A stretch of DNA of 64,000 nucleotides. Origin: Rufibacter psychrotolerans. Its GTDB lineage: Bacteria; Bacteroidota; Bacteroidia; Cytophagales; Hymenobacteraceae. Positions 9,921 to 28,911 of the stretch are shown piece by piece. The notes beneath the pieces are model-generated. The model was given only the letters and a program-made list of their open reading frames with translations. It was not told where the DNA came from and did no database searches. Within the stretch, counting starts at the first letter, position 1. Every line of letters starts with the position of its first letter. A program made the position numbers and the translations under genes. The stretch lies in assembly GCF_016924645.1 (NCBI RefSeq), contig NZ_JAFFJV010000006.1, positions 62,001 to 126,000 on the forward strand, in the 5' to 3' direction.

Positions 9921-10784
9921 TTACTTTTTCAGGAAGGCATCCAGCTGCGCGAACATCCAGGCGGGCTCATCATACATGATGAAGTGCTTGGCGGTGTCGG
10001 CGATCCGGATGTCTGCCGTAGGCAAATTAGCGAATTGCGCCTTAAACATGTGGGTGGTGATGTCTTTTGTGACCCCGTAATTTTTGTAGCCGTACCAGGC
10101 CCCCAGCACCAGCACCGGGCTCTTAATGGCGGCAATGTCTTTTCTGAGGTCAGAGGTGTACATCTCGTACATGGCTTGGCCGGTGGTGGGGTAGTGGGAG
10201 GCCCGTCCCCAGGCAATGATCTGTTTGATGTGCACCGAGTCGGTGGCCATGCTCCCCATGTTGGCTTCCTGCTGCTTCTGCATTTCTGGGTTGGGCGTGG
10301 CCATGACTTTGCGGAACTGGTCGGTCATGGGTTTGATGCTCTCCACGGTAGCCGTGGGGTTCTGGGCGGCCCCCACGAACGGGAGTCCGTCTACCACCAC
10401 TATCTTCCCGAAGGTGTCGGGGGCTTTAATGCCCAGCGCCAGGGCCAGGTACCCGCCCAGGCTATGCCCCACCAGCACGGGTTTCTTCAATTTGTTTTCC
10501 TGCACAAAGGCCAGCACCTCGTCGCGCATGCTGTTCAGGAAGTGGTCGGTTTTAATAGCAGGCTGCCCCGCAAAGCCCGGAAGGGTAAGCACGTAGCAAG
10601 TGTAGTTTTTCTGATAGTGCGCCACTGTCCCATCCCACACCTCACCGCCCGAGTTCAGGCCTGGAATCAGGATCATGGCCGGGCCTTTGCCCGTTTTCAC
10701 TACTTTAAAGGAAGGCGCTTGGGCTGAGGTGGTTAAAGTGACGCACAACAGCAGCACCAGGATTGAAGTAATTTTTGCTTTCAT
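9921..10784 (-). CDS. Secreted alpha/beta hydrolase
   Basis: 287 aa with a signal peptide (MKAKITSILVLLLCVTLTTSAQA) and an alpha/beta-hydrolase fold. ILIPGLNSGGEVWDG provides the HG-type oxyanion strand, VGHSLGGYLALALG holds the nucleophile Ser, and the catalytic His is in TAKHFIMYDEPAW near the C-terminus. The frame is open for a further 87 codons upstream, but these cross a 36-nt palindrome and lack a signal peptide, so the ATG at 10784 is chosen. A CACCTTTG -7-like box lies 40 bases upstream. It ends 15 bases before the kinase start; substrate unknown. Confidence 0.82.
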   Translation of the reverse strand: MKAKITSILVLLLCVTLTTSAQAPSFKVVKTGKGPAMILIPGLNSGGEVWDGTVAHYQKNYTCYVLTLPGFAGQPAIKTDHFLNSMRDEVLAFVQENKLKKPVLVGHSLGGYLALALGIKAPDTFGKIVVVDGLPFVGAAQNPTATVESIKPMTDQFRKVMATPNPEMQKQQEANMGSMATDSVHIKQIIAWGRASHYPTTGQAMYEMYTSDLRKDIAAIKSPVLVLGAWYGYKNYGVTKDITTHMFKAQFANLPTADIRIADTAKHFIMYDEPAWMFAQLDAFLKK

Positions 10785-10972: not shown

Positions 10973-11124
10973 GTAGCGTCGTTACCCTGTAACGACGTGT
11001 CTCTATGGAACAATATCTTCTCTTCAGGCAAGCAGGAACATTCAAACAACATAGGAGCTGTTTCTAGAAGATGTGAGCCAGTCCTGCTGCGGAGAACCAC
11101 GTCGTTACAGGGTAACGACGCTAC
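10973..11124. repeat. REP doublet (REPIN/BIME-like) with GTAG tetranucleotides
   Basis: GTAG (10973-10976) is followed by the palindrome CGTCGTTAC-CCT-GTAACGACG (10977-10997). The same unit returns in inverted orientation at 11100-11124 as palindrome plus CTAC. The two 25-base units are exact reverse complements and enclose about 100 bases. A conserved 5' GTAG before an imperfect palindrome is the signature of REP sequences mobilised by RAYT (TnpA-REP) proteins; no such gene is in this window. Located between the hydrolase start and the aspS end. Confidence 0.8.
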
Positions 11125-11130
11125 GTTTTT

Positions 11131-11166
11131 GTTTTTGACCCTATTTCTGGGAAACAGGCCCAAAAC
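11131..11166. repeat. 36-nt dispersed palindrome, copy 6
   Basis: GTTTTTGACCCTATTTC / GAAACAGGCCCAAAAC; follows the REP doublet and abuts the aspS terminator. Confidence 0.8.
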
Positions 11167-11167
11167 G

Positions 11168-11203
11168 AAAAAACCTGTGAGGTCTCCAAGACCTCACAGG
11201 TTT
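11168..11203 (-). terminator. Terminator of aspS
   Basis: Perfect 14-base stem (AAACCTGTGAGGTC / GACCTCACAGGTTT) with a 5-base loop. Read on the minus strand it is followed by six T, 30 bases after the aspS stop. The same CCTCACA/TGTGAGG hairpin sequence recurs at 7212-7245. Confidence 0.85.
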
Positions 11204-11233: not shown

Positions 11234-12985
11234 TTATTTCACGCGGGTGTCAATCTGTAACTCATCCAGCTGCGCCTGCGCGATTGGCGAGGGGGCATCA
11301 ATCATCACATCACGGCCTGAGTTATTTTTAGGGAACGCGATGAAGTCCCGGATAGAATCAGCGCCACCGAACAAAGAGCACAGACGGTCAAACCCGAAAG
11401 CGATACCACCGTGCGGAGGTGCGCCGTACTCAAAGGCATCCAACAAGAATCCGAACTGCGCCTGTGCCTCTTCCGGCGTAAAGCCTAACAAGTTGAACAT
11501 GCGGGACTGCACGGCGCGGTCATGGATACGGATAGAACCGCCACCCACTTCTACACCGTTGATGACCATGTCATAGGCATTGGCGCGCACGGCACCGGGG
11601 TTGGTGTCAATCAGGTCCATGTCCTCAGGCTTGGGCGAGGTGAACGGGTGGTGCATGGCGTGGTAGCGGTTGCTTTCCTCGTCCCACTCCAGGAGCGGGA
11701 AGTCCAGCACCCACAGGGTAGAGAACGTGTCTTTGTCGCGCAGGCCCAGGCGGGTGCCCATCTCTAGGCGTAGCTCGTTTAGAGCTTTTCTTGTTTTATC
11801 GGCTCCGCCGGCTAATACCAGCAGTAAGTCTCCGGGTTGGGCGTTGAAGGCTTGGGCCCATTGCTGTAAATCTTCCGGCGAGTAGAATTTGTCCACGCTT
11901 GATTTCACGCTGCCGTCTTCCTGCACGCGGGCGTACACCAAACCGGTGGCACCTACTTGCGGACGTTTCACGAAATCAGTCAGTTCATCTATTTGTTTAC
12001 GGGTGTAGAAAGCGCTGCCGCTGGCGTTGATGCCTACTACCAATTCGGCGTCATCAAACACCTTGAAGCCTTTGTTCTTCACCACGTCGTTCAGTTCCAC
12101 AAACTGCATCCCGAAACGGGTGTCTGGTTTGTCTGAGCCGTAGAGGCGCATGGCATCGGCGTAGGTCATGCGCGGGAAATCAGCCAGTTCAATGCCTTTT
12201 ACGGTACGGAACAGGTGTTTCACCAAGCCTTCAAACGTGTTCAGGATGTCTTCCTGGGTTACGAAGGAAAGTTCGCAGTCAATCTGGGTGAACTCGGGCT
12301 GACGGTCGGCGCGCAAATCTTCGTCTCTAAAGCATTTCACAATCTGGAAATACTTGTCAAAGCCAGACACCATCAACAGCTGCTTAAAGGTCTGCGGGCT
12401 CTGCGGCAAAGCGTAGAACTCACCGGGGTTCATGCGGCTAGGCACCACGAAATCGCGGGCTCCTTCTGGTGTGGATTTAATGAGTACCGGAGTCTCTACC
12501 TCAATAAAGCCCTGGCCGTCCAGGTACGAGCGGGTCTGCTGAGCCATGCGGTGGCGTAGCTCCAGGCTTTTGCGGACTGGCGAGCGGCGCAAGTCCAGGT
12601 AGCGGTACTTCATGCGCAGGTCATCGCCGCCATCGGTCTCGTCCTCAATCAGGAACGGAGGCAGTTTGGCCGGGTTCAGAACCTCCAGCGCGGTTACTTT
12701 TATCTCAATGTCGCCGGTGGCGATTTTGTCGTTTTTAGACACGCGCTCAATTACGGTGCCGGTGGCCTTCACCACGAACTCACGACCCAACGTACGGGCA
12801 GTGGTGAGAACCTGTGCGTCAGAAACACCTTCCTCCAGGCTCAGCTGCGTGATGCCGTAGCGGTCGCGCAGGTCAACCCAAAGCATGCCGCCTTTGTCGC
12901 GTGATTTCTGTACCCAACCGGTCAGGGTCACTTCCTGACCAACATTCTCCAGGCGTAATTCGCCGCAGGTGTGTGAACGAAGCAT
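11234..12985 (-). CDS. aspS: Aspartate--tRNA ligase
   Basis: Class II aminoacyl-tRNA synthetase, 583 aa, bacterial type length. N-terminal OB-fold anticodon-binding domain ([23 protein letters not shown]), then the catalytic core with motif 2 [18 protein letters not shown], the bacteria-specific GAD insertion in the middle, and motif 3 GIAFGFDRL near the C-terminus. Charges tRNA-Asp. Start ATG at 12985; a TACCTTTG -7 box stands 28 bases upstream. Confidence 0.97.
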
Positions 12986-26149: not shown

Positions 26150-27169
26150 TTACTTGGCGGGCTTGACTCCTTCTGAGGTCATGACTACCCGTTTCAGGGT
26201 GCCGTTTTTGTGGTAGTCCAGTTGGTCAATGCAGATGGACCGCCGGAAACTGCCCCCCTCCGGCTGAATGCCCCCGTTGTGGTAAATGAAATAGCTCTTT
26301 CCCTTAAAATCAATGATGGCCTGGTGGTTAGTGTTGGAGTTGCCGGCCAGCTCGTTCAGAATGCCCTTGTATTCCCACGGACCCTCCACGCTCTTGCTCA
26401 TGGCATAGGCCGTCTTCTCGGGGAACTGGTAGGCGTAAGACAAGTAGTACCAGCCGTTGCGCTTGTGCACCCAGGGCGCCTCGGTGAAATGGGGCAGTTT
26501 AATGGTTTTGATGGGGCCGTCCAGTTCCACCATGTTCTTCTTCAGCTTGGCGTAGTGCAGCACGGTGTTCCCCCAGAAGATATACGCCTGCCCATTGTCA
26601 TCAATGAACACGGCCGGGTCAATGTCATCCCAGCCAATGGAAGTATGGGTGGTCATGTTGTTGGTGATGAGCGCCGACCCGATGGCGTCCTTAAAGGGCC
26701 CGATGGGGCTGTCGGCCACCGCCACGCCAATGGCCTTGCCCGGAATGGTGGCGTGCTCCACGGTGGAGTACCAGTAAAACTTGCCGTCACGCTCTATCAC
26801 GTGCGAAGCCCAGGCCTCGCCTTTGGCCCAGGCGAAATCCCTGGCCTTGAGCGGCACCTTGTGCTCGGTCCAGGTGACCAGGTCTGGCGAGGAAAAGACC
26901 AGCCACTCATGCATGACGTAGCCCTCGCGGCGGGCGGGGGCTTCGTCATGGCCTGCGTACAGGTACACCTTGTCCTTGTACACCAGGGCCGCCGGGTCTG
27001 CGGTGTACTTGTGCGTGAAAATGGGGTTTGCAGTGGCTTTGATGACCGTGTCTGGCCGGGCAAGGCGCAAAGGGCCGGCTACCGCCGAACCAGCCAGCAG
27101 GAGCGTCCCGGCTACGGCCAGTAGTGCTCCCTTGGAGAAGCTGCGAAGAAAGTTCGAAAGTGGGTGCAT
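26150..27169 (-). CDS. GH43 family glycoside hydrolase (alpha-L-arabinofuranosidase-like)
   Basis: 339 aa with an N-terminal export signal (residues 1-32). Five-bladed propeller of GH43: catalytic base D58 in YTADPAALVY, pKa-modulating Asp in DDIDPAVFIDDNGQ, and catalytic acid Glu in FTEAPWVHK. GH43 enzymes invert alpha-L-arabinofuranosides or beta-D-xylosides; the locus favours arabinan side chains or oligosaccharides. 200 bases downstream of the GH51 gene on the same strand, with a degenerate 36-nt palindrome between, so the two may be co-transcribed from the palindrome-bearing promoter at 28958-29005. Confidence 0.85.
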   Translation of the reverse strand: MHPLSNFLRSFSKGALLAVAGTLLLAGSAVAGPLRLARPDTVIKATANPIFTHKYTADPAALVYKDKVYLYAGHDEAPARREGYVMHEWLVFSSPDLVTWTEHKVPLKARDFAWAKGEAWASHVIERDGKFYWYSTVEHATIPGKAIGVAVADSPIGPFKDAIGSALITNNMTTHTSIGWDDIDPAVFIDDNGQAYIFWGNTVLHYAKLKKNMVELDGPIKTIKLPHFTEAPWVHKRNGWYYLSYAYQFPEKTAYAMSKSVEGPWEYKGILNELAGNSNTNHQAIIDFKGKSYFIYHNGGIQPEGGSFRRSICIDQLDYHKNGTLKRVVMTSEGVKPAK

Positions 27170-27301: not shown

Positions 27302-27369
27302 GGCGGGGCAGGTCAGCAGAGATAGGGAATGGGCCTGGCTGAAAGCAAGGCTCCTCCCGGCCTTGGAGT

Positions 27370-28911
27370 TTACTTCATCTCCAGTACCACCACCGAAAAC
27401 GGCGGCAGTTCCACGTTCAGGGTTTTGCCCTTGAGCTTGGCCCCTTTGAAAGCGGTGGGAGTGATGAGGGTTGGCTTGGCGAAGGTGTTGTGGTCCTGCA
27501 GGGTTTTAGAGGTAAGAATCCGCCCGGCAACCGACTTGAAATTGGCACCCTCAATGTTGATGGACACCTCCTGCTTCTTCTTAGGGTCAATGTTGACCAG
27601 CGAAACGTGGGTCACCCCGTTTTTATCCCTGGAGGCAGAGCCGTTCACCGCGGTGAGTTTCTCGTTGCCCAAGGCGTAGTCGGCGCTTTTGACGGTGAGG
27701 GGCAGGTAAGTGGCATCCTGGTGTACGTTGTACATCTCCATCACGTGGTACGTAGGCGTGAGGAGCATTTTCTCCTCCTCGGTCAGGATCACAGCCTGCA
27801 GCACGTTCACCACCTGGGCCAGGTTGGCCATGCGCACGCGGTCTGAGTGGTTGTTGAAGATGTTGAGGGTGGAGCCGGCAATCATGGCGTCGCGCATGGT
27901 GTTCTGCTGGTACAGAAAGCCAGGGTTGGTGCCGGGCTCTACCTCATACCAGCCGCCCCACTCGTCTACCACCAGGGCAATCTTCTTCTCAGGGTCGTAC
28001 TTGTCCATAATGGCGGAGTGCTTCTGGATGAGCTCCTCCATAAACAGCGCCTGCTTCATGGTGGTGAAGTACTGCTGCTCATTGAAGTTTACCGAAGGGC
28101 CTTTCTTGCCCCAGTCAATCACCGAGTAGTGGTGGAGGGCCACACCCTCAATCAGGTTCCTGGGGATGATGCGCATGAGGGCCTCGGTCCAGTTGTAGTC
28201 GGCGGAGTTGGCCCCGGAGGCAATCCTGAAGAGCCCGCCCGAGTTGTTCCAGTCAGAGACGAAGGTGGCGTACTTGCGGTACTCGTTGGCGTAGTACTCC
28301 GCGGTCATGTTGCCGCCGCAGCCCCAGGCCTCGTTGCCAATGCCCCAGTACTTTACTTTCCAGGGTTTTTCGCGGCCGTTTTTTTTGCGCAGGTCAGACA
28401 TGGGGCTCACGCCCGCGAAGTTCACGTACTGCACCCAGTCGGCCAGTTCCTGCACGGCGCCGCTGCCCATGTTGCCGGCCAGGTAAGGCTCGGTGTCCAG
28501 CAGTTCGCACATGTTCAGGAAGTCGTGGGTCCCGAAGCTGTTGTTCTCGGTCACGCCTCCCCACCAGTTGTTCACAATGGTGGGGCGCTGGTCTTTGGGG
28601 CCTATGCCGTCTTTCCAGTGGTAGGTGTCGGCGAAGCAGCCGCCGGGCCAGCGCAGGTTAGGGATTTTCAATTTCTTCAAAGCGGCCACCACGTCGTTCC
28701 GTACCCCGGCCGTGTTGGGGATCTTGGTGTTGTCTTCCCCCACGTAAATGCCCCCGTAAATGCAGCGGCCCAGGTGCTCGGCAAAGTGCCCGTAAATGTG
28801 GCGGCTAATGGTTCTGGTGGGGGTGGTGGGTACGGTTAAAGTGGCAGTGTTCTGCGCGAAAGACCCTAAGGCAACAAAAAGAAGTAAGAAAGGTAAGATT
28901 GCGTTCTTCAT
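27370..28911 (-). CDS. GH51 alpha-L-arabinofuranosidase
   Basis: 513 aa, signal peptide MKNAILPFLLLFVALGSFAQ, (beta/alpha)8 barrel plus C-terminal beta domain. Retaining catalysis: acid/base Glu about residue 193 in GIGNEAWG and nucleophile Glu about 317 in VVDEWGGWYE; RWPGGCFADTYHW and YGHFAEHLGRCIYGG are family hallmarks. Removes terminal alpha-L-arabinofuranose from arabino-oligosaccharides, probably in the periplasm. The frame is open to 29028, but that stretch contains the putative operator and promoter, so the ATG at 28911 with a good signal peptide is chosen. Divergent from susC. Confidence 0.93.
   Translation of the reverse strand: MKNAILPFLLLFVALGSFAQNTATLTVPTTPTRTISRHIYGHFAEHLGRCIYGGIYVGEDNTKIPNTAGVRNDVVAALKKLKIPNLRWPGGCFADTYHWKDGIGPKDQRPTIVNNWWGGVTENNSFGTHDFLNMCELLDTEPYLAGNMGSGAVQELADWVQYVNFAGVSPMSDLRKKNGREKPWKVKYWGIGNEAWGCGGNMTAEYYANEYRKYATFVSDWNNSGGLFRIASGANSADYNWTEALMRIIPRNLIEGVALHHYSVIDWGKKGPSVNFNEQQYFTTMKQALFMEELIQKHSAIMDKYDPEKKIALVVDEWGGWYEVEPGTNPGFLYQQNTMRDAMIAGSTLNIFNNHSDRVRMANLAQVVNVLQAVILTEEEKMLLTPTYHVMEMYNVHQDATYLPLTVKSADYALGNEKLTAVNGSASRDKNGVTHVSLVNIDPKKKQEVSINIEGANFKSVAGRILTSKTLQDHNTFAKPTLITPTAFKGAKLKGKTLNVELPPFSVVVLEMK

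Follow-up and report, generated by a model that had tools for sequence, protein, structure and literature searches.

Downstream of aspS in Rufibacter psychrotolerans, two short repeats tagged with GTAG face each other, and the locus raises the question of whether this pair is a REPIN and, if so, which enzyme would mobilise it. It lies in the window, i.e. the whole stretch of 64,000 nucleotides that was analysed, which corresponds to C25:62001-126000 of a genome of 5.18 Mb in 35 contigs (hereafter G000).

Structure and site of the repeat pair

The element occupies positions 10973..11124, on neither strand in particular, and is a pair of inversely oriented REPs separated by 102 bp, each with its GTAG at the outer end. 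The left REP arm (10973..10997, + strand) consists of GTAG and a 9-bp stem with the 3-nt loop CCT, and the right arm (11100..11124, - strand) has the same sequence. The unit is the 25-mer GTAGCGTCGTTACCCTGTAACGACG, with its exact reverse complement in the facing arm. The initial annotation had described two exactly complementary, facing 25-base units carrying GTAG, which was borne out with a gap of 102 bp in place of 100; the palindrome that it took for imperfect is a perfect 9-bp one with a 3-nt loop. The full inverted repeat is 32 bp long, with a complementarity of 94%. The left arm is followed by a subterminal box, TGTCTCTATGGAACA (10998..11012, + strand), whose family consensus in an alignment of 37 REPINs is approximately TGGTnCTAYGnARCA, and the right-arm counterpart (11085..11099, - strand) reads TGGTTCTCCGCAGCA on the - strand.

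As single-stranded DNA, one arm folds into GTAG plus the perfect 9-bp stem and 3-nt loop at -8.8 kcal/mol (z -6.5), and the whole 152 bp also folds into a single long hairpin at -43.1 kcal/mol (z -9.4). No match to the 25-mer at ≤3 mismatches was obtained in 100 dinucleotide shuffles of the window. The element is thus an inverted pair of REPs, with GTAG on the outside and able to form hairpins, as expected of a REPIN.

The REPIN is intergenic, being outside both neighbouring genes: it lies upstream of the alpha/beta hydrolase gene (9921..10784, - strand), whose ATG at 10784 is kept in aligned relatives, and downstream of aspS, the aspartyl-tRNA synthetase gene (11234..12985, - strand). A 15-bp perfect inverted repeat immediately 3' of aspS (11171..11203, no strand) is probably its terminator. 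Between this repeat and the REPIN, at 11137..11160 (no strand), lies a palindrome resembling GGCCTGTTTTCnnGAAAACAGGCC, of a kind that is abundant between genes; it adjoins the REPIN but is outside the element. Such palindromes have 12 sites in the window (≤5 mismatches), three mononucleotide-shuffled windows gave 0, 0 and 1, and by eye they adjoin many REPINs.

At the aspS site, a REPIN is present in 5 of 16 genus genomes (G000, G002, G006, G009 and G013), and the remaining 11 have no unit at ≤4 mismatches in the approximately 1.5 kb 3' of aspS. Among these, G004 has a GTAG hairpin pair of a different family, G005 and G011 retain the hydrolase gene and show an alignment gap where the element sits, and G007 and G015 are not clean empty sites, since a different gene follows aspS. 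The REPIN junctions are blurred by divergence between species, and no REPIN movement was seen, only this presence or absence between species at aspS. The loops are CCT in both arms in G000, G002 and G013, and ACC in both arms in G006 and G009; the element of G013 carries two substitutions in its left arm. The loops being matched within each element, the arms tend to change jointly.

Copies of the unit and the RAYT3 genes

The 25-mer has 30 matches in G000 at ≤3 mismatches, 7 of them exact (the two of the window included), and none in the reversed control. When the stem dinucleotide and the loop were left free in the search pattern, 36 units were found at ≤1 mismatch, 30 of them exact, again with 0 in the reversed control. 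Thirty of the 36 are paired and 6 stand alone (≤1 mismatch), the pairs being 12 facing (HH), with gaps of 70-187 bp, 3 tail-to-tail (TT) and 0 direct. A looser scan of fetched loci gave 14 REPINs in G000, of which 13 overlap no ATG-ORF of ≥150 aa and one overlaps a 176-aa ORF, in a rough, ORF-based test. Together with two further genomes, the REPIN set amounts to 37 (14, 12 and 11), and their gap is 70-197 bp with a median of 113.

In the genus, units occur in 12 of 16 genomes: G000 36, G001 37, G002 35, G003 8, G004 15, G005 12, G006 43, G009 49, G010 14, G011 4, G013 32 and G014 1. G007, G008, G012 and G015 have 0 units in the same scan at ≤1 mismatch.

The search for a TnpA-REP (Y1) gene flanked by the unit, which the initial annotation had recommended along with the genome search, was also positive. 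RAYT3 is a 184-aa ORF at C7 of G000, located between the REPINs 26521-26689 and 27334-27501. A second copy at C30, RAYT3b, is 68% identical to the C7 gene, and in its flanking pairs one arm is of the standard unit and the other three are of a GTTCC variant. The RAYT3 genes are outside the window. Genes at least 64% identical were found in 8 of 16 genomes, nine in total with the two of G000; the matched stretch is interrupted by an internal TAG in 2 of the 9 and free of internal stops in the other 7. Hairpins with GTAG, of the unit or of the variant, adjoin all nine genes, on both sides in 8 and on one side in L072 (G005). Two sites are occupied, site A in G000 (C7), G003 and G010, and site B in G000 (C30), G001, G002, G005, G009 and G013. 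Neither a single-copy unit nor the lack of a RAYT gene, which would have spoken against a REPIN, was thus encountered, and the 36 units with two RAYT3 genes in one genome support the proposed REPIN structure with a RAYT.

Eight or more units were found in 8/8 genomes with RAYT3 versus 2/8 without (G004 and G006; Fisher P 0.0035), and the unit count is related to RAYT3 presence over the 16 genomes (Mann-Whitney P 0.011), both P values being optimistic since the 8-unit threshold was chosen after the counts were seen and the species are not independent. Four genomes have units without RAYT3 (G006 43, G004 15, G011 4 and G014 1). The populations of G006 and G004 are orphans with no RAYT3 found at a completeness of 99 and 100%, respectively. 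Exact units are fewer in G004 (7/15) than in G000, G001, G002 and G009 together (130/157, P 0.003), and the 33/43 of G006 do not differ from these (P 0.38); judging from its units, the orphan population of G004 is apparently decaying.

The motifs of RAYT3 are NHVH, WQPRFHD and YILNNP. They agree with the signature of TnpAREP subclass 2.4, NH[IFV]H, WQ and YIxNNP, as given in PMC6006769, in a comparison of motifs. The best profile match of RAYT3 is NCBIfam NF047646 (REP_Tyr_transpos), with 55.7 bits and E 4.9e-15, below the curated cut-off of 80; this profile is matched by 23/23 members of the set A1 at E ≤0.001. Pfam PF01797 (Y1_Tnp) gave 20.0 bits and E 0.00078, below the gathering score of 23. 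With a profile of 39 RAYT3 relatives, the sole PDB match at E ≤0.1 is the E. coli TnpAREP (4er8), with E 1.6e-6. A structure model of the R. immobilis relative, 79% identical to RAYT3 (mean pLDDT 80.1), has 28 PDB fold matches at E ≤0.001, by title all transposases and including those of the IS200/IS605 kind. The match to 4er8 has a TM of 0.54 and an rmsd of 3.5, and the other listed transposases have low TM values of 0.37-0.48 by query length. The model thus has the fold of a Y1 HUH transposase.

Among named organisms, Rufibacter and Sabulibacter have the closest relatives of RAYT3. Among the wider relatives (80 kept out of 555 found), 67 of 80 have a GTAG hairpin in the gene or within 450 bp of it, and 55 of 80 inside the gene; mononucleotide-shuffled stretches gave a mean of 0.75 and a maximum of 2 of 80. 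Other tags in the same real stretches were less frequent (GTGG 15, GTAA 12, GTAC 9, GATG 8 and CATC 7 of 80). No GTAG hairpin was found inside any of the nine RAYT3 genes of the genus. As internal hairpins are absent from these genes, motifs, hairpins and fold are taken to indicate the type of the enzyme and not a proven place in subclass 2.4.

Two Y1_Tnp genes of G000 that pass PF01797 had also been considered as cognate enzymes, L031:1429-1974 (C28) and L032:1402-1956 (C30). Both exceed the NF047646 cut-off (99.7 and 103.4 bits), but they were rejected as they are flanked by other repeats, GACACGAGCTGCAAGCTCGCGCCAGCG and CACGAGTCTGGAGACTCGCGCCAGC. A Y1 gene flanked by the unit was thus found in RAYT3, not in these two. 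Their catalytic Tyr motif (YIxxNP according to PMC6006769) is YIHLNP in L031 and YLHQNP in L032, which resembles, without matching it exactly, the YIH[QN]NP given there for subclass 2.6.

Proposed mobilisation and alternative explanations

These data very probably identify a REPIN, non-autonomous and approximately 150 bp long, with two inverted GTAG REP hairpins. Its cognate enzyme, which would mobilise it in trans, is very probably RAYT3, a single-strand HUH/Tyr transposase resembling those of TnpAREP subclass 2.4 (group 4) in type. The observed basis is the structure, the repetition, the REPINs on both sides of RAYT3, the co-occurrence in the genus, the presence or absence at the aspS site and the exact variant common to C30 and C4 (see below). 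From this anatomy and the work on TnpAREP (PMC8266576), RAYT3 would bind the GTAG-hairpin of an arm when the DNA becomes single-stranded, e.g. during lagging-strand synthesis. It would then cut beside the hairpin by means of the Tyr of YILNNP, and copy or move the REPIN in trans into another intergenic site.

An alternative, which we consider unlikely without being negligible, is that the REPINs were spread long ago by RAYT3 and are now immobile, and that any retention would reflect a host function, e.g. in terminating transcription or stabilising mRNA downstream of aspS. The 7 of 9 RAYT3 genes without an internal stop in the matched stretch argue against it, and the 11 of 16 genomes with no unit in the approximately 1.5 kb 3' of aspS indicate no general need for one there. 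The age that it supposes agrees with an aspS-site element common to 5 of 16 species, the interiors of which have drifted, with a highest similarity of 85% between REPIN interiors (RAYT3b flanks), and with the four genomes that retain units without RAYT3. The exact variant at C30 and C4 of G000 suggests, however, a spread after divergence, though related variants occur elsewhere.

In the alignment of the 37 REPINs, the arms and then the box are conserved and the interior drifts, and the outward GTAG is conserved although it is outside the stem. The latter is not expected if the hairpins are simply abundant signals that act in the RNA, as terminators or attenuators. Such signals would account for strong, intergenic hairpins, for a probable aspS terminator adjoining the element and for the T-stretch that, on the + strand, follows the right arm in the window, and they may apply to single copies. 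As an explanation of the family, they are very improbable, given that units adjoin RAYT3 and that their counts track its presence.

The variable stem dinucleotide is paired in 67/74 arms (GG 45, GT 20, AG 1 and GC 1) and unpaired in 7, i.e. the stems change in pairs. A MITE moved by a classical DDE transposase acting on double-stranded DNA, the 25-mers being its terminal inverted repeats, would likewise have two inverted ends enclosing a short non-coding interior. It is most improbable, as each end is a GTAG-tagged hairpin whose stem changes pairwise (67/74), for which double-strand terminal inverted repeats have no need, and an HUH-type gene sits between such ends. In an inspection of the 37 REPINs by eye, no target-site duplications stood out.

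Known REP systems and divergence of hairpins and tags

The Rufibacter REPIN shares with those of Pseudomonas fluorescens SBW25 (Bertels and Rainey 2011, PMC3116915) the inverted REPs, the less conserved spacer, the single hairpin and a cognate RAYT. The spacings are similar in magnitude, 71 and 110 bp between the 16-mers in SBW25 versus 70-197 bp (median 113) in Rufibacter. In SBW25, however, the RAYT is of another type, the hairpin sequence is unrelated and 430 doublets are reported, versus 36 units in Rufibacter; this number is also low compared with the more than 100 REPs usual per genome according to PMC2817692. With TnpAREP subclass 2.4, or group 4 in the numbering of Bertels et al. 2017 as cited by Quentin et al. 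2018 (PMC6006769), RAYT3 shares NHVH, WQ and YIxNNP, canonical GTAG hairpins at the gene and occurrence in Bacteroidetes. Insertion of hairpins inside the gene, which that paper describes as predominant in subclass 2.4, is absent from RAYT3, whose hairpins form REPINs beside the gene. The GTAG families of Di Nocera et al. 2013 (PMC3733652) similarly comprise GTAG stem-loops as HH and TT dimers, with alternative complementary stem residues. E. coli REPs require a bulged stem, whereas the Rufibacter stem is perfect, like those of group 3 systems (Corneloup et al. 2021, PMC8266576).

The cited work on REPINs and RAYTs centres on Pseudomonas, Stenotrophomonas, Marinomonas and E. coli. In the PMC3733652 survey, GTAG repeats are reported in Proteobacteria, Cyanobacteria, Chloroflexi and PVC, and Bacteroidetes are named for CGTC repeats only. 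Subclass 2.4 is described in PMC6006769 as abundant among the Cyanobacteria and the Bacteroidetes. In open-licence PMC, no article on REPINs in Bacteroidota was found apart from PMC6006769 and PMC3733652, which contain both words. The initial annotation expected a Bacteroidota example to be informative; such an example was found, but its novelty is limited, since Bacteroidetes RAYTs with GTAG hairpins had already been reported in 2018 (PMC6006769).

The two arms are identical in 15 of 37 REPINs, compared with a permutation mean of 5.0 and a maximum of 12 in 5000. The REPINs flanking RAYT3b (C30) are inverted copies of each other at 85%, and this pair has the most similar interiors among the 37 REPINs and three more. 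The exact 24-mer GTAGCGTCGTTCCGCGGAACGACG is present at the RAYT3b REPINs and elsewhere in the 16 genomes only in one distant REPIN, at G000 C4:113547-113700. At ≤1 mismatch, relatives of the GTTCC variant were found in G008 (4) and in G001, G004, G007 and G014 (1 each), as well as in one TT pair of G000, so the variant is not entirely private. Of these genomes, G008 has neither RAYT3 nor standard units.

RAYTs whose flanking hairpins (GTACGGACAGGTCGCGACCTGTCC) carry the tag GTAC were observed at L086 (G000:C23:221841-222353), L074, L080, L075/L243 and L244. By hand count, the GTAC tag is carried by 53 of the 94 exact hairpins in the genus. Among 20 family relatives from 200 genomes drawn, W-H goes with GTAC in 4/4, and W-Q with GTAG in 15/16 and with GTAC in 1/16. 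A strict link between GTAC and His was rejected on four grounds: L244, which belongs to this clade and has GTAC hairpins, retains Gln; the Bacteroidales RAYT L165 combines His with GTAG; among 107 loci, the W-Q loci L155, L156 and L158 have GTAC as the commonest or a tied tag; and the tree requires two tag changes. By analogy, the GTAC clade would be a natural counterpart of the GTAG to GTAC change made in vitro in PMC8266576, beyond which no literature on this tag change was found.

A RAYT/REP code drifting within one genus is a tentative reading of these variations, somewhat doubtful as a whole. Template switching, or repeated recopying by RAYT3, would continually homogenise the two arms of each REPIN as the interior drifts, RAYT3b would have started its own hairpin family, and a sister clade would have switched its tag from GTAG to GTAC, in 4/5 cases with a Gln to His change at a tag-contacting position. 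The relatives of the RAYT3b variant in other genomes weaken this reading. As a Bacteroidota genus, Rufibacter offers 32-49 units in 6 of 16 species, relatives lacking RAYT3, one genome in which the two RAYT3 copies differ in their hairpins, and a sister clade that uses another guide tag. It would thus serve as a test of the co-evolution of single-strand transposase and hairpin, and of whether natural cleavage is guided by the tag, as it is in vitro.

The 16 TT loci, from three genomes, are L012, L016, L020, L119-L121, L124, L125, L132-L135, L137, L140, L144 and L147. They share the hairpin core, with GTAG inside and a linker of 8-15 nt. Their stems mostly differ from those of HH pairs, with GA and CT dinucleotides (mostly CGACG and CCTCG), and the CGACG unit is often followed by GTACGCATTCC. 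Two genomes with RAYT3 (G003 and G005) lack TT pairs and two without it (G004 and G006) contain them, so not all units can be accounted for by RAYT3. A further RAYT, L091 (G000:C22:68451-68948), has its own hairpins, GTAGGGGCGTATCGCATACGCCC, which brings the RAYT genes of G000 to at least six and their hairpin types to about five.
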